This document shows positions 2,884 through 15,382 of a DNA stretch of 64,000 bases, piece after piece (position 1 is the first letter of the stretch; every line of letters starts with the position of its first letter). The stretch comes from a bacterium (GTDB taxonomy: Bacteria; Armatimonadota; UBA5829). The notes beneath the pieces were generated by a model. It worked only from the letters and a program-made list of their open reading frames with translations. It ran no database searches and was not told where the DNA came from. The position numbers and the translations under genes were made by a program. The stretch spans positions 124,001 to 188,000 of the forward strand of contig JAJFVF010000002.1 of assembly GCA_021371935.1 (NCBI GenBank), written 5' to 3'.

Positions 2884-2905
2884 ACTCTCCACTCTCATAC
2901 TCTTA
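2884..2905. repeat. heptamer repeat, family A (CTCTCCA type)
   Basis: Degenerate tandem copies of a 7-base unit (ACTCTCC ACTCTCA TACTCTT) that run directly into the argG stop codon at 2903-2905. Confidence 0.7.
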
Positions 2906-4093
2906 ACTATCCTTCACCGTGCGATACATTCTCGCCTGCATGCCGTGGGTCTTCACGATCCCGACTGCCTCGCTCTGGTCAAAGGTCTTGGAATCGAATG
3001 ACGCCAGGTCTTCGTTATAGAGAGCATACTTGCTCCTGCGTCCGATGACCGTACAGCTTCCCTTAAAGAGGCGCAAGATGACATCGCCGGTGACTCTGGG
3101 CTGAATCTTATTGATAAACGCTTCCAGGTCGTCCTTGAACGGGTCATACCACAGACCCTCATAGGCGAGCTTGCCCCACTGCTGATCGACCGACACCTTG
3201 AAAGCTCTCTCTTCGGCTGTGCAGACCAAATCTTCCAGAGCCTTATGAGCCGGAATCAGGACTTTTGCCGCTGGGCACTCATAGTTCTCGCGGACCTTGA
3301 GGCCGATGATCCTATCTTCCATTATATCGACCCTGCCTACACCATTGGCCCCAGCAAGCTCGTGCACCTTAAGGACCAGATCGAGTGAGTTCATCTTCTG
3401 GCCGTTCAAAGCAACCGGCACGCCATTATCGAACGTGATGGTGATCTCAGTCGGCGTGTTAGGCGCATCCACAGGGTTCTTTGTCCAGTGGAAGATTTCT
3501 TCCGGCGGAGCGTAATCCGGCTCCTCCAGATGACCGCCCTCTATCGACCGTCCCCACAAATTCTCATCTATGGACCATATCTTGTCTTTGCTCTGGCCGA
3601 TCGGGATGCCCTTCTTTTCGGCATATTCGATCTCCCAGGTGCGGGTCATGGTGTGCTCGCGCATAGGAGCGATGATCGGCATATCAGGCATCAGAGCGCG
3701 CATTACGAACTCGATCCTGAACTGGTCATTGCCCTTGCCGGTGCAGCCATGGCAGAAGGCATCACCTTTGACTTTCTGAGCAATCTCGACTGCCTTGAGG
3801 CCTATTAGCGGCCTTGCAATAGATGTGCTGATCGGGTAGCCCTGATAATCGCCGTTGGCTTTGATCGCAGGAAAAATATACTCGTCTACAAACTCCTGCC
3901 GGGCGTCGATTGTGTAGTGCTCGGTGCCGAGCATCTTGGCCTTCTCTTCAGCCTGTTTGATCTCCGCTGCGGGCAGACCCACATCGACAGTAACGGTAAC
4001 GATATGGTCGAACCCATAGTCCTCGCGCATCATCGGGATGCACACTGATGTATCCAGCCCACCTGAGTAGACTAGGACGACTGTTTTTGGCAT
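2903..4093 (-). CDS. argG: argininosuccinate synthase
   Basis: Joins citrulline and aspartate with ATP to give argininosuccinate. About 396 residues from ATG 4093 (GGAGG seven bases upstream), the usual family length; an upstream extension to 4171 would translate repeat sequence and is rejected. The N-terminus VVLVYSGGLDTSV is the PP-loop ATP site; further on are PISTSIARPLI, CHGCTGKGNDQFR and IGQSKDKIWSIDEN, all typical of ArgG. It lies downstream of argF and the four-helix-bundle gene on the same strand. Family-A repeats touch both its 3' end and its 5' leader. Confidence 0.97.
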   Translation of the reverse strand: MPKTVVLVYSGGLDTSVCIPMMREDYGFDHIVTVTVDVGLPAAEIKQAEEKAKMLGTEHYTIDARQEFVDEYIFPAIKANGDYQGYPISTSIARPLIGLKAVEIAQKVKGDAFCHGCTGKGNDQFRIEFVMRALMPDMPIIAPMREHTMTRTWEIEYAEKKGIPIGQSKDKIWSIDENLWGRSIEGGHLEEPDYAPPEEIFHWTKNPVDAPNTPTEITITFDNGVPVALNGQKMNSLDLVLKVHELAGANGVGRVDIMEDRIIGLKVRENYECPAAKVLIPAHKALEDLVCTAEERAFKVSVDQQWGKLAYEGLWYDPFKDDLEAFINKIQPRVTGDVILRLFKGSCTVIGRRSKYALYNEDLASFDSKTFDQSEAVGIVKTHGMQARMYRTVKDS

Positions 4094-4110
4094 GATTTTC
4101 CTCCATTTTT

Positions 4111-4140
4111 GGTGGAGAGTGGAGGGTGGAGAGTGGAGAG
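4111..4140. repeat. heptamer repeat, family A
   Basis: GGTGGAGAGTGGAGGGTGGA-type 7-base units filling the gap between the four-helix-bundle stop codon (4141) and the argG ribosome site. Confidence 0.75.
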
Positions 4141-4521
4141 CTACTCGCTCGCCACTTGGTCCGTTTTCCACTTTCCAAGGCTGTTCCTAAAAGAGCTTAG
4201 CATTCTTGCAAGCTCATCAGCTTCTGAAACGATTCGTTCAAGGCAATTTACATCAATCAAGCTTTGCGCTGTTGCAATATGCAAGTGTGAAAGAGTTTCA
4301 CACAAAGAACCGTAAGCTATTTCGATAAACCGCGAGAAGTCTTTGTTGGATACTCTGGAACTACCCTCCGCAATATTGGCGCTTATCGACACTGCCGCAC
4401 GCCTCATTTGTGAAGTAAGACCAAACTGCTCTTTCATCGGAAAAGTCTCTGTTGACTTATATATCAAATTAGCAAACTCGATGCTTTTCTTCCAAATGTC
4501 CAGCTTCTCGAACCGAAACAT
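4141..4521 (-). CDS. four-helix-bundle protein (TIGR02436 / 23S rRNA intervening-sequence protein family)
   Basis: About 126 residues; FRFEKLDIWKKSIEFANLIY at the start and FGLTSQMRRAAVSISANIAEG in the middle are the hallmark of this family, first seen in insertions within bacterial 23S rRNA genes and later as scattered stand-alone genes of unknown function. ATG 4521 has AGAGG upstream. It is placed between argF and argG with a family-A repeat at each end, suggesting it arrived as a cassette together with, or into, the repeat. It has no obvious link to arginine synthesis. Confidence 0.85.
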   Translation of the reverse strand: MFRFEKLDIWKKSIEFANLIYKSTETFPMKEQFGLTSQMRRAAVSISANIAEGSSRVSNKDFSRFIEIAYGSLCETLSHLHIATAQSLIDVNCLERIVSEADELARMLSSFRNSLGKWKTDQVASE

Positions 4522-4541
4522 GGCTAACCTCTTACTCACAG

Positions 4542-4575
4542 TTCTCTACTCTTAACTCTCCACACTCCACTCTTA
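4542..4575. repeat. heptamer repeat, family A
   Basis: Degenerate CTCTACT/CTTAACT/CTCCACA/CTCCACT units running into the argF stop codon (4573-4575); they form the gap before the four-helix-bundle gene. Confidence 0.7.
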
Positions 4576-5988
4576 GCCAGCTAACAGCACCATCACGGCC
4601 TTCTGCGCATGCAGCCTGTTTTCAGCCTCGTCAAAAACTACACTCTGCTTGCTGTCGATCACCTCGTCAGTGACCTCAGAGTTGCGGTGAGCGGGCAGGC
4701 AGTGCTCGAAGATCGCATCGGGTTTTGCATGCTTCATCAAACCGGCATTTACCTGGAAAGGCGCGAAAGTTTTTGCTCTCTCCGCAGCCTCGGCTTCCTG
4801 GCCCATACTCGCCCATACGTCTGTATAGACCACATCTGCATCCTTAACGGCTTCAACAGCATCGTTGAATATCTCAATCTTGGCGCCGGTCTCTTTAGCA
4901 AACTCCTTCGCCTTGGCTGTCACATTCTCATCCGGCTCATAACCCTTGGGGCAGCCGATGGCAAAGTTCATGCCTACCTTGGCGGCCAGCAGCATAAGCG
5001 AGTGAGCTACGTTGTTTCCGTCGCCTATAAATGCCAGTTTGAGTCCTTCGAACTTGCCTTTGTGCTCGAGAATCGTATAGAAATCGGCCAGAGCTTGGCA
5101 TGGGTGCTCGAGGTCGGACAAGGCATTTATCACCGGGATCCCCGCATACTCAGCAAGCCCGGTCACCTTTTCATGCTCAAAGACACGAGCCATGATGATG
5201 TCGCACATCCGCCCGATTGTCTGCGCCACATCGCCTATGCTCTCGCGCTTACCCAGACCGATATCGTTGGGCCCAAGGTATATGCCATGCCCCCCGAGCT
5301 GGAATATTCCGGTCTCGAAAGAGACCCGAGTCCGCAGGCTGGGTTTCTCAAAAATCATAGCAAGAGTCTTGCCTTCAAAAATCCTGCGCTGTCTGGACGG
5401 CGGGATGATCCCCTCCTTCAGCTTCTTGGTCATATTAAAGATAGTGTCTATCTCGGCGCGGTTGAGCTGAGAGATGCTGAGCAGGCTCTTGCCCCGCAGT
5501 TCGACCGCTGCTTCCGGTTTCTTCTCGCTGGTGAAAGCCACTCCTTCTAACAGCTTGCCGCTGCGCTGCTCAATTACCGCCTGCCTGGCCGGTTCCAACT
5601 TGACACCGAACTTGGCCAGTGTTCGTGCAGCCAGACCCTCCGGCTGCCGGATAACGCCAAGCAGCAGATGCTCCGAACAGAGCCTGTCGGCCTGCATCTC
5701 ATTGCCCTCTTCATATGCGAAATCTATTGCCCGCTTGGCACGCGGAGTAAGCTGCATGTCGCCGCCCAGATTGCCCGAGCCCCTGGCCATATTGGCCTCA
5801 AGTTCGGCTCGCAGCTCCTTTAAGTCGACTCCCAGCGAGGTCAACACCAGCGCTGCACCGCATCCTCGGTCTCTTGTCAAACCCAGCAGAATGTGCTCGA
5901 TGGAGACATTGTTGTCACCCATCTTGCCCGCTTCTTCTTGAGCGAAAAATATAACCCTCTTAGCGTGGTCAGTAAATCGTTGCCACAT
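4573..5988 (-). CDS. argF: Clp N-domain fused to ornithine carbamoyltransferase
   Basis: Single 471-residue frame from ATG 5988 (GGAG site upstream). Residues 1-143 are a full ClpC/ClpA-type N domain made of two repeats: RFTDHAKRVIFFAQEEA with SIEHILLGL, then LTPRAKRAIDFAYEE with SEHLLLGV. Residues about 163-471 are ornithine carbamoyltransferase: SLRTR carbamoyl-phosphate site (217-221), HPCQ (295-298), DVWASMGQE ornithine loop and FEHCLPAHR. The enzyme makes citrulline from ornithine and carbamoyl phosphate. T6, E31, T81 and E106 correspond to the Thr and Glu residues that hold phosphoarginine in the B. subtilis ClpC N domain. No AAA+ module follows. The fusion lies between argD and argG, and its N domain may sense arginine-like ligands or recruit a Clp machine; both are inference. 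Confidence 0.95.
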   Translation of the reverse strand: MWQRFTDHAKRVIFFAQEEAGKMGDNNVSIEHILLGLTRDRGCGAALVLTSLGVDLKELRAELEANMARGSGNLGGDMQLTPRAKRAIDFAYEEGNEMQADRLCSEHLLLGVIRQPEGLAARTLAKFGVKLEPARQAVIEQRSGKLLEGVAFTSEKKPEAAVELRGKSLLSISQLNRAEIDTIFNMTKKLKEGIIPPSRQRRIFEGKTLAMIFEKPSLRTRVSFETGIFQLGGHGIYLGPNDIGLGKRESIGDVAQTIGRMCDIIMARVFEHEKVTGLAEYAGIPVINALSDLEHPCQALADFYTILEHKGKFEGLKLAFIGDGNNVAHSLMLLAAKVGMNFAIGCPKGYEPDENVTAKAKEFAKETGAKIEIFNDAVEAVKDADVVYTDVWASMGQEAEAAERAKTFAPFQVNAGLMKHAKPDAIFEHCLPAHRNSEVTDEVIDSKQSVVFDEAENRLHAQKAVMVLLAG

Positions 5989-6013
5989 TTGATAATCTCC
6001 CTCGAAAAATAGC

Positions 6014-6125: not shown

Positions 6126-7328
6126 CTAATTATCACTCAGTATCTTCGCAATAATACTTATCGCACGGTCGACTAACTCGTTAGTCAGGATAAGTGGCGG
6201 GACGAACCGCAGCGTATTCTCACTCGTCGCGTTGATTATTAGACCGGCCTCCAGCGCCTTTGATACCAAATCTTTGGCTATGGGCTTATCAAACTCTGCT
6301 GCAACCATCAGACCCAGTCCGCGGACTTCTTTTACTCCAGGCAGTATAGCTAGTTGCTCGCGGAAATACTGCCCAACCTTAGCCGCGTTTTCGACCCAGC
6401 CGCCATCTTTTATCTCAGTAACTGCCGCTATCGCCGCCGCGCATGCTAGTGGGTTGCCGCCGAATGTAGCCGCATGGTCGCCCGGCTCAAAGACATCCGC
6501 CCATTTATCACGCGCTAGACATGCCCCCATCGGGAAACCCGCCGCTATAGTCTTGGCGAGGGTCATAACATCCGGGACAACCCCAAAGTTCTGGAACCCA
6601 AACATCTTACCCGTTCTGCCCAAGCCTGTCTGGACCTCGTCGAAGATGAGCGTTGCGCCGAACTTGTCGCACAGGTCGCGTGCTGCCTGCAAGAACTCGG
6701 CACTGGCCGGATGCACCCCGCTCTCACCCTGCACAGGCTCCATCATAATGGCGCAGGTCTTCTCGTCCACTGCGTCCTTGAGAGCTTCGATATCATTATA
6801 AGGTATATATTTGAAGCCCGGAACCAGCGGAGTAAACGACTTCTGATACTTCGGCTGGCCGGTGGCAGTAATAGCCGCCAGGGTCCGGCCATGAAATGAC
6901 TTTAATGCCGTCACTATCTCGCACTTTTCAGGGTGCCCTGATATCTTGGCCGCTTTCTTGGCTAGTTTCATTGCTGCTTCATTGGCTTCAGCTCCCGAGT
7001 TGCAGAAGAAAGCCTTACTCATCCCCGAAATCTCACACAGAATCTTGGCTAGTTTTGCCTGGCCGGGCACGTAATAGAGATTGCTGGTGTGCATAAGAGT
7101 TCCGGCCTGCTCGCGGATAGCCTCGACTACTTTGGGCGGGCAGTGCCCCAACCCATTTACTGCAATCCCTGCCACAAGGTCCAGATACTCCTTGCCATCG
7201 ATGTCATAAGCAAAGCATCCCTCACCCTTAACGAGCACTACCGGCTGCTTGCCGTAGGTTTTCATTACGTATTGATCGTACAGCGCCATTACATCGGCGC
7301 TGTTTGTCTCTGATTGTTTCGTTAGCAT
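6126..7328 (-). CDS. argD: acetylornithine aminotransferase
   Basis: PLP enzyme converting N-acetylglutamate semialdehyde to N-acetylornithine. About 400 residues from ATG 7328 (GAGGG site upstream), normal length. Motifs: NSGAEANEAAMKLAKK, SFHGRT, EPVQGESGV, IFDEVQTGLGRTGK and the PLP-lysine region TLAKTIAAGFPMGA. It lies 141 bases after argB and 138 bases before argF in the arginine operon. The lysine loop reads TIAAG rather than the commoner GLGGG, a small change not expected to stop activity. A succinyl-ornithine specificity is unlikely given its neighbours. Confidence 0.95.
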   Translation of the reverse strand: MLTKQSETNSADVMALYDQYVMKTYGKQPVVLVKGEGCFAYDIDGKEYLDLVAGIAVNGLGHCPPKVVEAIREQAGTLMHTSNLYYVPGQAKLAKILCEISGMSKAFFCNSGAEANEAAMKLAKKAAKISGHPEKCEIVTALKSFHGRTLAAITATGQPKYQKSFTPLVPGFKYIPYNDIEALKDAVDEKTCAIMMEPVQGESGVHPASAEFLQAARDLCDKFGATLIFDEVQTGLGRTGKMFGFQNFGVVPDVMTLAKTIAAGFPMGACLARDKWADVFEPGDHAATFGGNPLACAAAIAAVTEIKDGGWVENAAKVGQYFREQLAILPGVKEVRGLGLMVAAEFDKPIAKDLVSKALEAGLIINATSENTLRFVPPLILTNELVDRAISIIAKILSDN

Positions 7329-7435
7329 AAAGTGCCCTCTTTCATTTATAAAGCAGATTCCTCGCATCTGCTCGGAATGACTCGATTATTAGTCTCACTA
7401 AGTGATAGAACGTTAACTGTTAGCAGCCGGTCTGG

Positions 7436-7469: not shown

Positions 7470-8327
7470 TCAAGGCACAATCATCGTCCCGATGCCTGTA
7501 TCCGTAAATATCTCCATCAACAGAGAGTGAGGCATGGTGCCGTCTATGATGTGCGTACGCTCGACGGCGCCCGCAAGCGCCGTCATACAAGCCTCCACCT
7601 TTGGGATCATGCCCTTGTCTATCTGTTTGGTCTTTATCATCTGCTTCGCGTCCGCCACCTTTAGTTCGGATATAAAGGTTGACTTATCGCTAAAGTCTGA
7701 GTATATACCCGGCACGTCGGTCATCATCATGAGCTTGGTCGCACCTACCTCAGCGGCAATCTCACCCGCGATATGATCGGCATTAACATTAAAACTCTCG
7801 CCGTTCGGACCGATCGCAACAGAAGATATTACAGGTATATAGTTATGCTCCAGCAGATCGTTCAGGATCATCGGATTGACCTTGGCTACCTGACCGACAA
7901 AGCCCAGATCAACGTCACTGTCCGCCTTTTGGGCGACAATTAGATTTGCATCCTTGCCTGAAAGGCCAACTGACCGCCCGCCAAGATTGTTAATAATCGA
8001 GACGATGCCCTTGTTCGTCTTGCCGGCAAGAACCATTTCGACTATCTCCATGGTCTCGGCGTCAGTTACCCGCCTGCCGCCGACGAATTCGGGTTCCTTG
8101 CCCAGCTTCTGCATAACTGCGCTGATCTCAGGTCCGCCTCCATGAACAAGGATCGGTTTCATACCTACATAATGCATAAGCACGACATCCTTGCACACGC
8201 CGACCTTCAGATCATCGTCGATCATGGCGTTGCCGCCGTATTTGATGACTATTATCTTTCCGGCATAGTGCTGTATATACGGCAGCGCCTGGACAAGTAT
8301 ATTAGCCTGCTCGCTTGTATAGTTCAT
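7470..8327 (-). CDS. argB: acetylglutamate kinase
   Basis: Phosphorylates N-acetylglutamate, the committed step. 285 residues from ATG 8327 with GGAGTGAG upstream. IVIKYGGNAM and ILVHGGGPEI are the nucleotide and substrate glycine loops; the C-terminus PKVEACMTALAGAV..IIDGTMPHSLLMEIFTDTGIGTMI is the form found in arginine-inhibited kinases, and the N-terminal helix before the first strand is also present. So feedback inhibition by arginine is likely. It is the first gene of the arginine operon; upstream lie the Arg leader peptide and terminator. argC and argJ are not in this window. Confidence 0.96.
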   Translation of the reverse strand: MNYTSEQANILVQALPYIQHYAGKIIVIKYGGNAMIDDDLKVGVCKDVVLMHYVGMKPILVHGGGPEISAVMQKLGKEPEFVGGRRVTDAETMEIVEMVLAGKTNKGIVSIINNLGGRSVGLSGKDANLIVAQKADSDVDLGFVGQVAKVNPMILNDLLEHNYIPVISSVAIGPNGESFNVNADHIAGEIAAEVGATKLMMMTDVPGIYSDFSDKSTFISELKVADAKQMIKTKQIDKGMIPKVEACMTALAGAVERTHIIDGTMPHSLLMEIFTDTGIGTMIVP

Positions 8328-8350
8328 GGTCTCACTCCATTGTGTTCTCG

Positions 8351-8370
8351 CCCTCCAGGTAAGATACCTG
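8351..8370. repeat. 20-bp dispersed repeat forming a hairpin in the argB leader
   Basis: CCCTCCAGGTAAGATACCTG is identical at 62618-62637. Here it continues to AAGGG, giving an 11-bp hairpin (one G-U pair, three-base loop) between the Arg terminator and the argB ribosome site. Confidence 0.65.
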
Positions 8371-8430
8371 AAGGGATACTTAATTCTCACTCAACATGGT
8401 ATCTGTCCGCCACCTCTGAGTCAACAACAC

Positions 8431-12699: not shown

Positions 12700-12907
12700 A
12701 AAGTCCAAAATCACTAAAGTGGCGACCTACGGGTTGCCTGGCGCGGCGATTACGGGCTCTCTGGACAATAATTAAGTCTGGTCAGACATTGACCTCCATG
12801 GGTTTATGGCGAAAGTATGGACATCACCATACCTTCGATTCTATGCCCAAATCTGTGGAGAGAGAGGCCGAATGATACCCGCATTGGGTGGTCATTCGGT
12901 TTTTTTT
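12700..12907 (+). promoter_or_regulatory. structured pckG leader ending in an intrinsic terminator
   Basis: Between the promoter and pckG lie an 11-bp hairpin with one mismatch around 12801-12832 (CGAAAGTATGG / CCATACCTTCG) and a terminator: CCGAATGA (12868-12875) / TCATTCGG (12892-12899) followed by eight T (12900-12907). The terminator closes only 28 bases before the pckG start, so conditional read-through is likely. I recognise no known riboswitch class; a 25-codon open frame ending at the terminator lacks a ribosome site. Confidence 0.65.
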
Positions 12908-12934
12908 GCATTTGCCGCGGGAAGGGTAATAGTC

Positions 12935-14701
12935 ATGATCCGCAACAAAGAGGCTGCGAAATGGGTCGAAGAGATGGCTGCTTTATGCAAGCCGGACAAA
13001 GTCGTCTGGACCGACGGCTCTGAAGAAGAAAAGCAACGCTTAACACAGGAAGCATGCGCCACAGGCGAACTTTATAAGCTCAACGAGAAAGTGCTGCCTG
13101 GATGCGTGCTGCATCGCACAGCCGAGAATGATGTCGCACGTACGGAGCATCTTACATTCATCTGTTCGCGCAAAGAAGAAGATGCAGGTCCGACAAATAA
13201 CTGGATGGATCCGAAGGAGGCTTACTCCAAGGTCGGGGAGATGTTTGACGGCTCGATGAAAGGCCGCACAATGTATGTCGTCCCGTTTATTATGGGAACC
13301 GCCGGTTCACCGTTTCGCAAGATCGGCATCGAGTTGACCGACAGCATTTACGTTGTGCTCAATATGCGAATCATGACACGCATGGGCCAGGTCGCTATTG
13401 ATGATCTGGGCGAAAATGAGGAGTTCACAAAATGCCTGCACTCCAAGGGTGAGCTTGATATAAACCGACGTTATATACTCCACTTCCCGGAGGACAACAC
13501 CATATGGAGTTATGGTTCGGGCTACGGCGGAAACGTACTCCTCGGCAAAAAGTGCCTATCGCTGCGGATCGCAAGCTATCTCGGTCTGCATGAAGGCTGG
13601 ATGGCTGAGCATATGCTTATCGTGGGCATCGAAAACCCGGATGGCGAAGTCAACTATATAGCTGCAGCATTCCCGAGCGCATGCGGCAAGACAAATCTCG
13701 CTATGCTTATCCCGCCGGAGAGCATGCCCGGATACAAAGTTTGGACGGTGGGCGACGACATCGCATGGATCAGGGTCGGTCAAGACGGACGCCTATGGGC
13801 GGTCAACCCTGAAGCCGGCTTCTTCGGAGTGGCACCGGGAACAAATATGAAGACAAATCCGAACGCTATGCTCACTGCGAGAAGAAATTCAATATTTACA
13901 AACGTTTTGCTTACGCCTGAGGACACAGTATGGTGGGAAGGAATGGATGATGACCCGCCTGAAGAGGGTATCGATTGGCGAGGTCAGCCTTGGACGCCTG
14001 CAAGCGACGGCAAGGGCGCGCATCCAAACTCTCGATTTACGGCTCCGGCATCGCAGTGTCCGGTTATATCGCCGGAATGGGAAAATCCGCAGGGAGTGCC
14101 GCTCTCTGCAATTCTCTTTGGCGGCAGGCGCGCCAAATTGGCTCCGTTGGTATATGAATCGTTCAACTGGCAGCACGGGACATTTGTCGGCGCGACAATG
14201 GCAAGCGAAACGACAGCCGCCGCAACCGGGACAGTGGGCGTTGTTCGTCGCGATCCGATGGCTATGCTGCCGTTTTGCGGATACAACATGGCCAGGTATT
14301 TCAGGCATTGGCTTGATATGGGTCAAAAGATTTCGTGCCCGCCCAAGATATTCCATGTCAACTGGTATAAGAAAGATGAAAACGGAGAATTTCTCTGGCC
14401 CGGCTTTGGCGAGAATCTGCGGGCAATCGAGTGGATCATCAAACGCTGCAAAGGAGAGGCTGATGCAAAGGAAACACCTATTGGGTACGTTCCGACTGTG
14501 GATGCGCTGAACCTTGATGGGCTGGACATTTCCCGTGAGGTTATGGACAGACTCCTTGAGGTTGATTGTGACGCTTGGGTTGAAGAACTCGGCGGTATGC
14601 AAAAGTTCTTCGATCAGTTCGGATACGATCTGCCGGAAGAGTTTATAGAAGAACAACAGGAACTAAAAAAGAGATTGGGACACTGTGCAGTATTAAGCTG
14701 A
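12935..14701 (+). CDS. pckG: phosphoenolpyruvate carboxykinase (GTP)
   Basis: Interconverts oxaloacetate + GTP and PEP + GDP + CO2 at the junction of the TCA cycle and gluconeogenesis. From ATG 12935 (AAGGG upstream) the protein has 588 residues, normal for the GTP-type family. Motifs: FPSACGKTNLAML (P-loop-like kinase-1a), VGDDIAWIR metal site, FFGVAPGTN, and the guanine-pocket region with FFNWY-like segments (HVNWYKKDENGEFLWPGFGEN). An extension to ATG 12806 would run through the terminator and is rejected. Confidence 0.96.
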   Translation: MIRNKEAAKWVEEMAALCKPDKVVWTDGSEEEKQRLTQEACATGELYKLNEKVLPGCVLHRTAENDVARTEHLTFICSRKEEDAGPTNNWMDPKEAYSKVGEMFDGSMKGRTMYVVPFIMGTAGSPFRKIGIELTDSIYVVLNMRIMTRMGQVAIDDLGENEEFTKCLHSKGELDINRRYILHFPEDNTIWSYGSGYGGNVLLGKKCLSLRIASYLGLHEGWMAEHMLIVGIENPDGEVNYIAAAFPSACGKTNLAMLIPPESMPGYKVWTVGDDIAWIRVGQDGRLWAVNPEAGFFGVAPGTNMKTNPNAMLTARRNSIFTNVLLTPEDTVWWEGMDDDPPEEGIDWRGQPWTPASDGKGAHPNSRFTAPASQCPVISPEWENPQGVPLSAILFGGRRAKLAPLVYESFNWQHGTFVGATMASETTAAATGTVGVVRRDPMAMLPFCGYNMARYFRHWLDMGQKISCPPKIFHVNWYKKDENGEFLWPGFGENLRAIEWIIKRCKGEADAKETPIGYVPTVDALNLDGLDISREVMDRLLEVDCDAWVEELGGMQKFFDQFGYDLPEEFIEEQQELKKRLGHCAVLS

Positions 14702-14712
14702 GGCAAAGACTT

Positions 14713-14788
14713 AGCCCGGATTATGCGCTTATCGCATAATCCGGGTCTCTGAGAGCATTATTCACGTTCCTCGTGAATAATGCGGGCT
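14713..14788. repeat. double-hairpin palindromic element P, copy 1
   Basis: Outer arms AGCCC / GGGCT enclose two perfect hairpins: CCGGATTATGCG / CGCATAATCCGG and GCATTATTCACG / CGTGAATAATGC. It starts 12 bases after the pckG stop. Close copies lie at 15287-15361 and 40029-40200. Confidence 0.9.
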
Positions 14789-14822
14789 AGCATCTGAAGC
14801 ATCCGGTGTTGTGCGGCACAGT

Positions 14823-14855
14823 AATTGGGTGGGTAATATTGCTCACCCAATTTTT
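14823..14855 (+). terminator. intrinsic terminator after pckG
   Basis: AATTGGGTG / CACCCAATT, nine base pairs, with a run of five T at its end (14851-14855). Confidence 0.75.
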
Positions 14856-14900
14856 ATGATTAAGCGTTTCATTTGCTGATGTCGTTGGTAGGATGGAAGT

Positions 14901-15281
14901 ATGTATGCCGACCGTGCCCAAACAATGAGCGTCGAAATCGTCGAGGATACGCAGGTCATCGTTCGCGTAAGCGGCGAGGTTGAACTGCCAAATGTCGATA
15001 AGCTCAGGAGTGCTGTCGAAAGTGCCGCGATGGCGAGCCCAAACGGTTTTGTAATCGACATGAACGGCGTGAGTTATATAGACAGCGCCGGCATATCGGC
15101 GTTGGTCTTCGCATACCGGCGTGTGTGCCCATCCGGCGGCAGGCTGGCGCTTGTCATAACCGATAAAAATGTCCGCAGGATCGTAACTCTTACCCGCCTT
15201 CATACGCTGCCAGGCATATCTCTGCATGATGATATCAACGAAGCACTATCTGCGCTCGGGACAAAACTTGCCGGTCGATGA
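14901..15281 (+). CDS. anti-anti-sigma factor (STAS domain)
   Basis: 126 residues of SpoIIAA/RsbV type: DMNGVSYIDSAGISALVFAYRR holds the phosphorylatable serine (YIDSAG). In partner switching the unphosphorylated form binds an anti-sigma kinase and frees its sigma factor. ATG 14925 is an alternative start with a less complete N-terminus. It is flanked by two copies of palindromic element P. A matching phosphatase and STAS-kinase fusion lie about 3 kb away at 18125-20634, so the three may form one signalling module; no sigma factor is seen. Confidence 0.88.
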   Translation: MYADRAQTMSVEIVEDTQVIVRVSGEVELPNVDKLRSAVESAAMASPNGFVIDMNGVSYIDSAGISALVFAYRRVCPSGGRLALVITDKNVRRIVTLTRLHTLPGISLHDDINEALSALGTKLAGR

Positions 15282-15286
15282 TATAC

Positions 15287-15361
15287 AGCCCTGATTATGC
15301 GCTTCTCGCATAATCAGGGCTCCGAGAGCATTATTCACGCTCCTCGTGAATAATGCGGGCT
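15287..15361. repeat. double-hairpin palindromic element P, copy 2
   Basis: AGCCCTGATTATGCG / CGCATAATCAGGGCT followed by GCATTATTCACG / CGTGAATAATGC and GGGCT. The C-to-T change in the first hairpin is matched by a G-to-A change in the other arm, so pairing is kept. It begins five bases after the STAS stop. Confidence 0.9.
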
Positions 15362-15382
15362 ACCTCAAGCGACATTATAAAA

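Follow-up and report, generated by a model that had tools for sequence, protein, structure and literature searches.

Why would an ornithine carbamoyltransferase (OTC) carry the N domain of the unfoldase ClpC, and what could the domain do there? The question is raised by argF in the window, the whole stretch of 64,000 nucleotides of Armatimonadota DNA that was analysed. The argF coding sequence (4573..5988, minus strand) starts with an ATG and encodes 471 amino acids, the stop codon being counted in the coordinates. A Shine-Dalgarno-like GAGGGAG (5997..6003, minus strand) lies 8 nt upstream of the ATG. The gene order is argB, argD, argF, argG and is kept in relatives. The neighbours, all on the minus strand, are argB for N-acetylglutamate kinase (7470..8390; PF00696), argD for a class-III aminotransferase (6126..7367; PF00202) and argG for argininosuccinate synthase (2903..4171; PF00764 and PF20979), and the listed starts of argB and argG are perhaps too far upstream.

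A gene for a 23S_rRNA_IVP four-helix bundle (window 4141-4539) is located between argF and argG, and in the congener locus L006 argG directly follows argF. In families f16 and f17, argD and OTC were found in one ORF of 727-749 aa (L168:2731-4977, L196:972-3173 and L197:819-2999). Elsewhere in the window, at 14713-15362 and downstream of an ORF at 12806-14701, hairpin-like direct repeats were seen as two pairs, of 46 and 33 nt, separated by about 573 nt.

argF encodes an OTC with a ClpC-type N domain

The argF product was divided into three parts. Residues 1-144 (5557..5988, minus strand) form a ClpC-type N domain, matched by Pfam Clp_N (PF02861) in two stretches with 81.4 bits against a cut-off of 20.7, and hold two Clp_N repeats at residues ~1-72 and ~73-144. 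A flexible linker follows at residues 145-161 (5506..5556, minus strand), and residues 162-471 (4576..5505, minus strand) were assigned by both Pfam and NCBIfam to the OTC domain, with OTCace_N at 167-308, OTCace at 314-469 and a score of 424.7 bits for TIGR00658 (ornithine carbamoyltransferase; cut-off 280.85). All four active-site motifs, SLRTR, HPCQ, SMG and HCLP, are present, and their key residues were unchanged across 25 homologues. An earlier note, made from the DNA letters alone, had described a complete two-repeat Clp N domain and a full OTC in one frame, and Pfam, TIGR00658 and the motifs agree with that description.

The AF2 model of the fusion returned two confident domains joined by a disordered linker at 145-161 with a pLDDT below 50. 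A fold search with the full model gave only transcarbamylases among the matches listed, so the N domain was folded separately, with a pLDDT of 92.8. The OTC part matched the solved OTC 1a1s with a Z of 46.2. The best PDB match of the N domain alone was the ClpC1 N-terminal domain 6ucr (TM 0.93), and the TM against the phosphoarginine-bound structure 5hbn was 0.83. The two-repeat fold is thus shared with the ClpC N domains of B. subtilis (5hbn) and M. tuberculosis (ClpC1, 6ucr), at ~40% identity and with the same four pocket residues. Unlike in ClpC, the N domain is tethered by its linker to an enzyme and not to an unfoldase; the Pfam scan found no AAA family in the argF product, and both ClpC AAA+ modules are absent. 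The full domain, the active-site motifs and the position in an arg operon are those of a bacterial anabolic OTC (TIGR00658; 1a1s), whereas the solved OTCs that were matched, with chains of 285-349 residues, lack the additional N-terminal extension of ~160 residues. As judged from these comparisons, the argF product is not a ClpC, residues 162-471 are an OTC, and the fusion is predicted to be a working-type OTC to which a ClpC N domain is flexibly tethered.

A Clp_N apart from an unfoldase ring is also found in stand-alone accessory proteins such as mycobacterial ClpC2 and ClpT. The plant protein ClpT1 is a Clp_N protein without an unfoldase. In contrast to argF, neither ClpC2 nor ClpT1 is an enzyme fusion, and the fusion N domain is only ~21-25% identical to ClpC2. 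The earlier note knew of no described Clp N-OTC protein, and this held: a full-text literature search, which covered few subscription papers, found no paper that links a Clp N-terminal domain to OTC, and none that links OTC to Armatimonadetes.

Could the fusion be an artefact? The earlier note had named a frameshift or assembly join near residues 145-165 as what would overturn it. The linker was scanned and contains neither a stop codon nor an ATG, and the same fusion frame is open in congeners (95% and 87% identity) and in other genera (50-62%), with relatives at 95% down to 41% identity carrying the fusion. The intact fusion in relatives therefore rules out a sequencing artefact. No supporting point was found in this window for an assembly error or for two genes joined by chance. 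The fusion is unbroken in many assemblies that are independent of each other, both the Clp_N and the OTC parts are under purifying selection, and the probability of such an error or joining is negligible. An internal start yielding free OTC was also rejected, the linker having no in-frame ATG and only a single GTG, which lacks a ribosome site at a suitable distance. Armatimonadetes bacterium UBA5829 showed 92% identity over part of the OTC, and this match, together with the kinship of the genome to others, puts it in Armatimonadota. In one genome (G080, L281:751-2279) a Clp_N-OTC frame is broken by an apparent frameshift within Clp_N.

Clp_N is linked to many OTCs of Armatimonadota

A search for the Clp_N plus OTCace architecture showed that it is widespread in the phylum. 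Across 291 Armatimonadota genomes, many OTC ORFs span an N domain, and in a non-random sample of 100 OTC loci that were read, 41 had a linked Clp_N, which was fused in 37 and only adjoining in 4. The other 59 loci have OTCs without Clp_N, among them the OTC of the congener G002, a genome that is itself McsB-positive. Two Clp_N modules precede the OTC in G056 and G029, and three in G046. A stand-alone Clp_N gene was located between argD and argF in G020, G022, G026, G027, G042, G028, G055, G077 and G106. Outside the phylum, no Clp_N-OTC fusion was found among the matches listed for 835 genomes (292 Cyanobacteriota, 249 Bacillota and 294 Planctomycetota) in a search bounded by E-value limits, which weak fusions could escape.

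In G079 a secretion-ATPase-like stretch separates Clp_N from the OTC. In family f25 (L140:3435-5294 and L139:2700-4547) the stretch between Clp_N and OTC resembles a type II secretion ATPase, and the match in L139 was weak and below the cut-off.

The domain was recruited more than once and is maintained

The trees were built with quicker tree methods, and in the N-domain tree several arg-linked copies fell inside the ClpC clades of their own families. The arg-linked Clp_N of G079 was 96% identical to the ClpC of the same genome and nested in its family's ClpC clade, that of G046 was sister to its own ClpC at 86% identity, and the f6 copies were placed inside their own-family ClpC clade. The N domain from the window was ClpC-like both in the fold search and in the tree. 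A single origin followed by vertical descent was rejected by the AU test, with a p-AU of 0.001 for a single clade of arg-linked copies. The OTC tree gave 16 changes of Clp_N linkage, a count that is slightly too high because G226 and G073, scored as lacking Clp_N, begin at contig edges; at least 8 changes were forced by well-supported branches. These trees indicate that Clp_N was recruited from the resident clpC more than once in Armatimonadota, with gene conversion as an alternative to new fusion.

Comparison of the window species with G004 gave a dN/dS of 0.024 for Clp_N and 0.039 for the OTC part. The low value for Clp_N means that the domain is maintained, and the Clp_N on argF is under strong purifying selection. 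Family f8 has a faster-evolving fused Clp_N, with a dN/dS of 0.16-0.26. The drift in f8 would suit a domain that only aids solubility, folding or oligomer packing of the OTC and has no signalling role, as would the flexible, low-confidence tether and the many Armatimonadota OTCs that manage without Clp_N. However, such a passenger accounts poorly for the strong purifying selection seen within the genus of the window species and for the repeated gain of the same domain. It also leaves unexplained the retention of Clp_N on a dead OTC and the genes that encode Clp_N alone in this place of the operon, which are unable to help folding in cis, and we regard a purely structural role as rather doubtful.

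McsB homologues lack the catalytic cysteine

The genome from which the window was taken has a resident mcsA-mcsB-clpC cluster. Its McsA and McsB homologues adjoin clpC and score below the equivalog cut-offs, and the position of the McsB cysteine, which is catalytic, aligns with a serine. This cysteine was replaced by Ser or His in all 19 Armatimonadota genomes with a readable motif, and the Ser-type McsB may still be active. The McsB homologues at L308:2659-3690 and L311-L330 have Ser or His for the Cys of solved bacterial McsB and keep the NEED motif. No McsB match was found in 10 of the 41 Clp_N-linked genomes, some of whose assemblies are incomplete. Linkage of Clp_N and presence of McsB were associated with a Fisher p of 0.022 when relatedness was left uncorrected, and independent pairs gave no significant association. 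A dependence of Clp_N linkage on McsB was rejected on these grounds.

The pocket residues do not identify a phosphoarginine reader

The earlier note had stated that the four residues of the phosphoarginine pockets are all kept, and had suggested feedback sensing of arginine. The first statement was confirmed by alignment with what we take to be the B. subtilis ClpC sequence: T6 (codon at 5971..5973), E31 (5896..5898), T81 (5746..5748) and E106 (5671..5673), all on the minus strand, align with T7, E32, T81 and E106 of ClpC, respectively. Here, E32 and E106 are part of the ClpC phosphoarginine pockets (PMC12583610). One rival reading is that the two Clp_N pockets bind arginine or free phosphoarginine and tune the OTC by allostery, and in its favour the window protein and most fused homologues keep the four residues. 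Of the 37 arg-linked copies in genomes with McsB, all have threonine or serine at position 7 and 34 have one of the two at position 81, the divergent family f17 included. Loss of residue 81 in f6, where no McsB was detected, also speaks for ligand sensing; it affects ClpC, which has D, and the arg-linked Clp_N, which has D, E or H, alike.

However, the same residues are general to Clp_N. The control was a set of 23 N domains belonging to other Armatimonadota Clp ATPases, some of which may not be ClpB. In this set T7 was present in 23/23, E32 in 22/23, T or S at position 81 in 21/23 and E106 in 23/23. A phosphoarginine reader can therefore not be recognised by these four residues, and their use as proof of phosphoarginine binding was rejected as non-specific, given nearly equal frequencies in the N domains of the phylum's other Clp ATPases. 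In the predicted structures positions 7 and 81 are at helix starts, and T or S at these positions is, according to the models, structurally favoured there. In family f7, which has two modules, pocket 2 is gone, as are the pockets of the second module. Furthermore, no activation of ClpC by unphosphorylated arginine was seen in PMC12583610, the McsB homologues lack the catalytic cysteine, arg-linked Clp_N persists where no McsB was detected, and the same module is found on proteins unrelated to arginine. The suggestion of arginine feedback sensing through the pocket was thus not borne out. The Clp_N on OTC is probably not a dedicated arginine sensor, and allosteric tuning of the OTC by ligand binding is unlikely. 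The wide occurrence in the phylum, the repeated origin and the non-specific pocket residues go beyond the earlier reading.

Clp_N as a possible docking module

We favour docking to the Clp machinery over arginine feedback. Our tentative reading is that Clp_N is an interaction module which may couple the abundance or activity of OTC to Clp proteostasis. The domain could serve as a docking site for the partners of ClpC, such as McsA/McsB-type proteins or arginine-phosphorylated proteins, or alternatively for the ClpC surfaces that are contacted by ClpC's own N domain in the resting state. In a stressed or starved cell, OTC could thereby be retained, modified or delivered to ClpCP, and tagging of OTC for ClpCP, which the earlier note had also put forward, is a possible role. 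A biosynthetic transcarbamylase related to OTC, the aspartate carbamoyltransferase PyrB, is targeted by ClpCP when B. subtilis is starved of glucose (PMC5746743), so that control by Clp is plausible for an enzyme of this kind. PyrB itself is no Clp_N fusion but a ClpCP client. The ligands of ClpC N domains are adaptors, phosphoarginine-substrates and ClpC's own M-domain (PMC12583610). Docking is supported by the mcsA-mcsB-clpC cluster of the same genome, by the ClpC-like N domain, by the low dN/dS of Clp_N, by its repeated recruitment to the OTC locus, by its fusion to other proteins and by its retention on the dead OTC of G037. What counts against docking is that 59 of the 100 OTCs, G002 with its McsB among them, do without Clp_N, that the association with McsB is weak and that Clp_N evolves fast in f8.

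A further possibility is that the additional Clp_N acts as a decoy that soaks up peptides or inhibitors targeting ClpC. Mycobacterial ClpC2 is the precedent, as it binds cyclomarin A and protects mycobacteria against it (PMC10030653), and the N-domain folds are alike, with 8ad9 among the fold matches. A decoy does not explain the repeated placement at argF, no link to ClpC-targeting compounds was seen, and we consider this role highly improbable.

More broadly, the repeated movement of a protease recognition domain onto one biosynthetic enzyme suggests that arginine synthesis and protein quality control are directly connected. The independent gains, the congener G002 without the domain and the dead enzyme of G037 provide natural comparisons for the role of the Clp N domain outside the unfoldase.

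Clp_N on other proteins and on a dead OTC

In Armatimonadota, Clp_N was also found fused to NadC (G043), cytochrome P450 (G079, and G078 as seen by an in-house profile only), GGDEF (G055) and sigma-70 region 4 (G078); these fusions, two of them with P450, are located at L266, L263, L274, L268 and L272. For such partners, a general regulatory tag is a better fit than a metabolite sensor. Clp_N could accordingly be a transferable tag that was copied from clpC onto OTC most often, and onto NadC, P450 and regulators, giving a Clp regulon encoded by the domain, in which one lineage would use a dead Clp_N-OTC as regulatory subunit. This broader reading is conceivable but somewhat unlikely. The dead protein was found in G037 (L309:4217-5671), an assembly with 9% contamination, where a Clp_N-OTC-like protein between argD and argG has lost SLRTR, HPCQ, SMG and HCLP. 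Since it retains Clp_N at the place of argF, the architecture can persist for a non-catalytic role. A normal OTC gene is present on another contig of the same genome.
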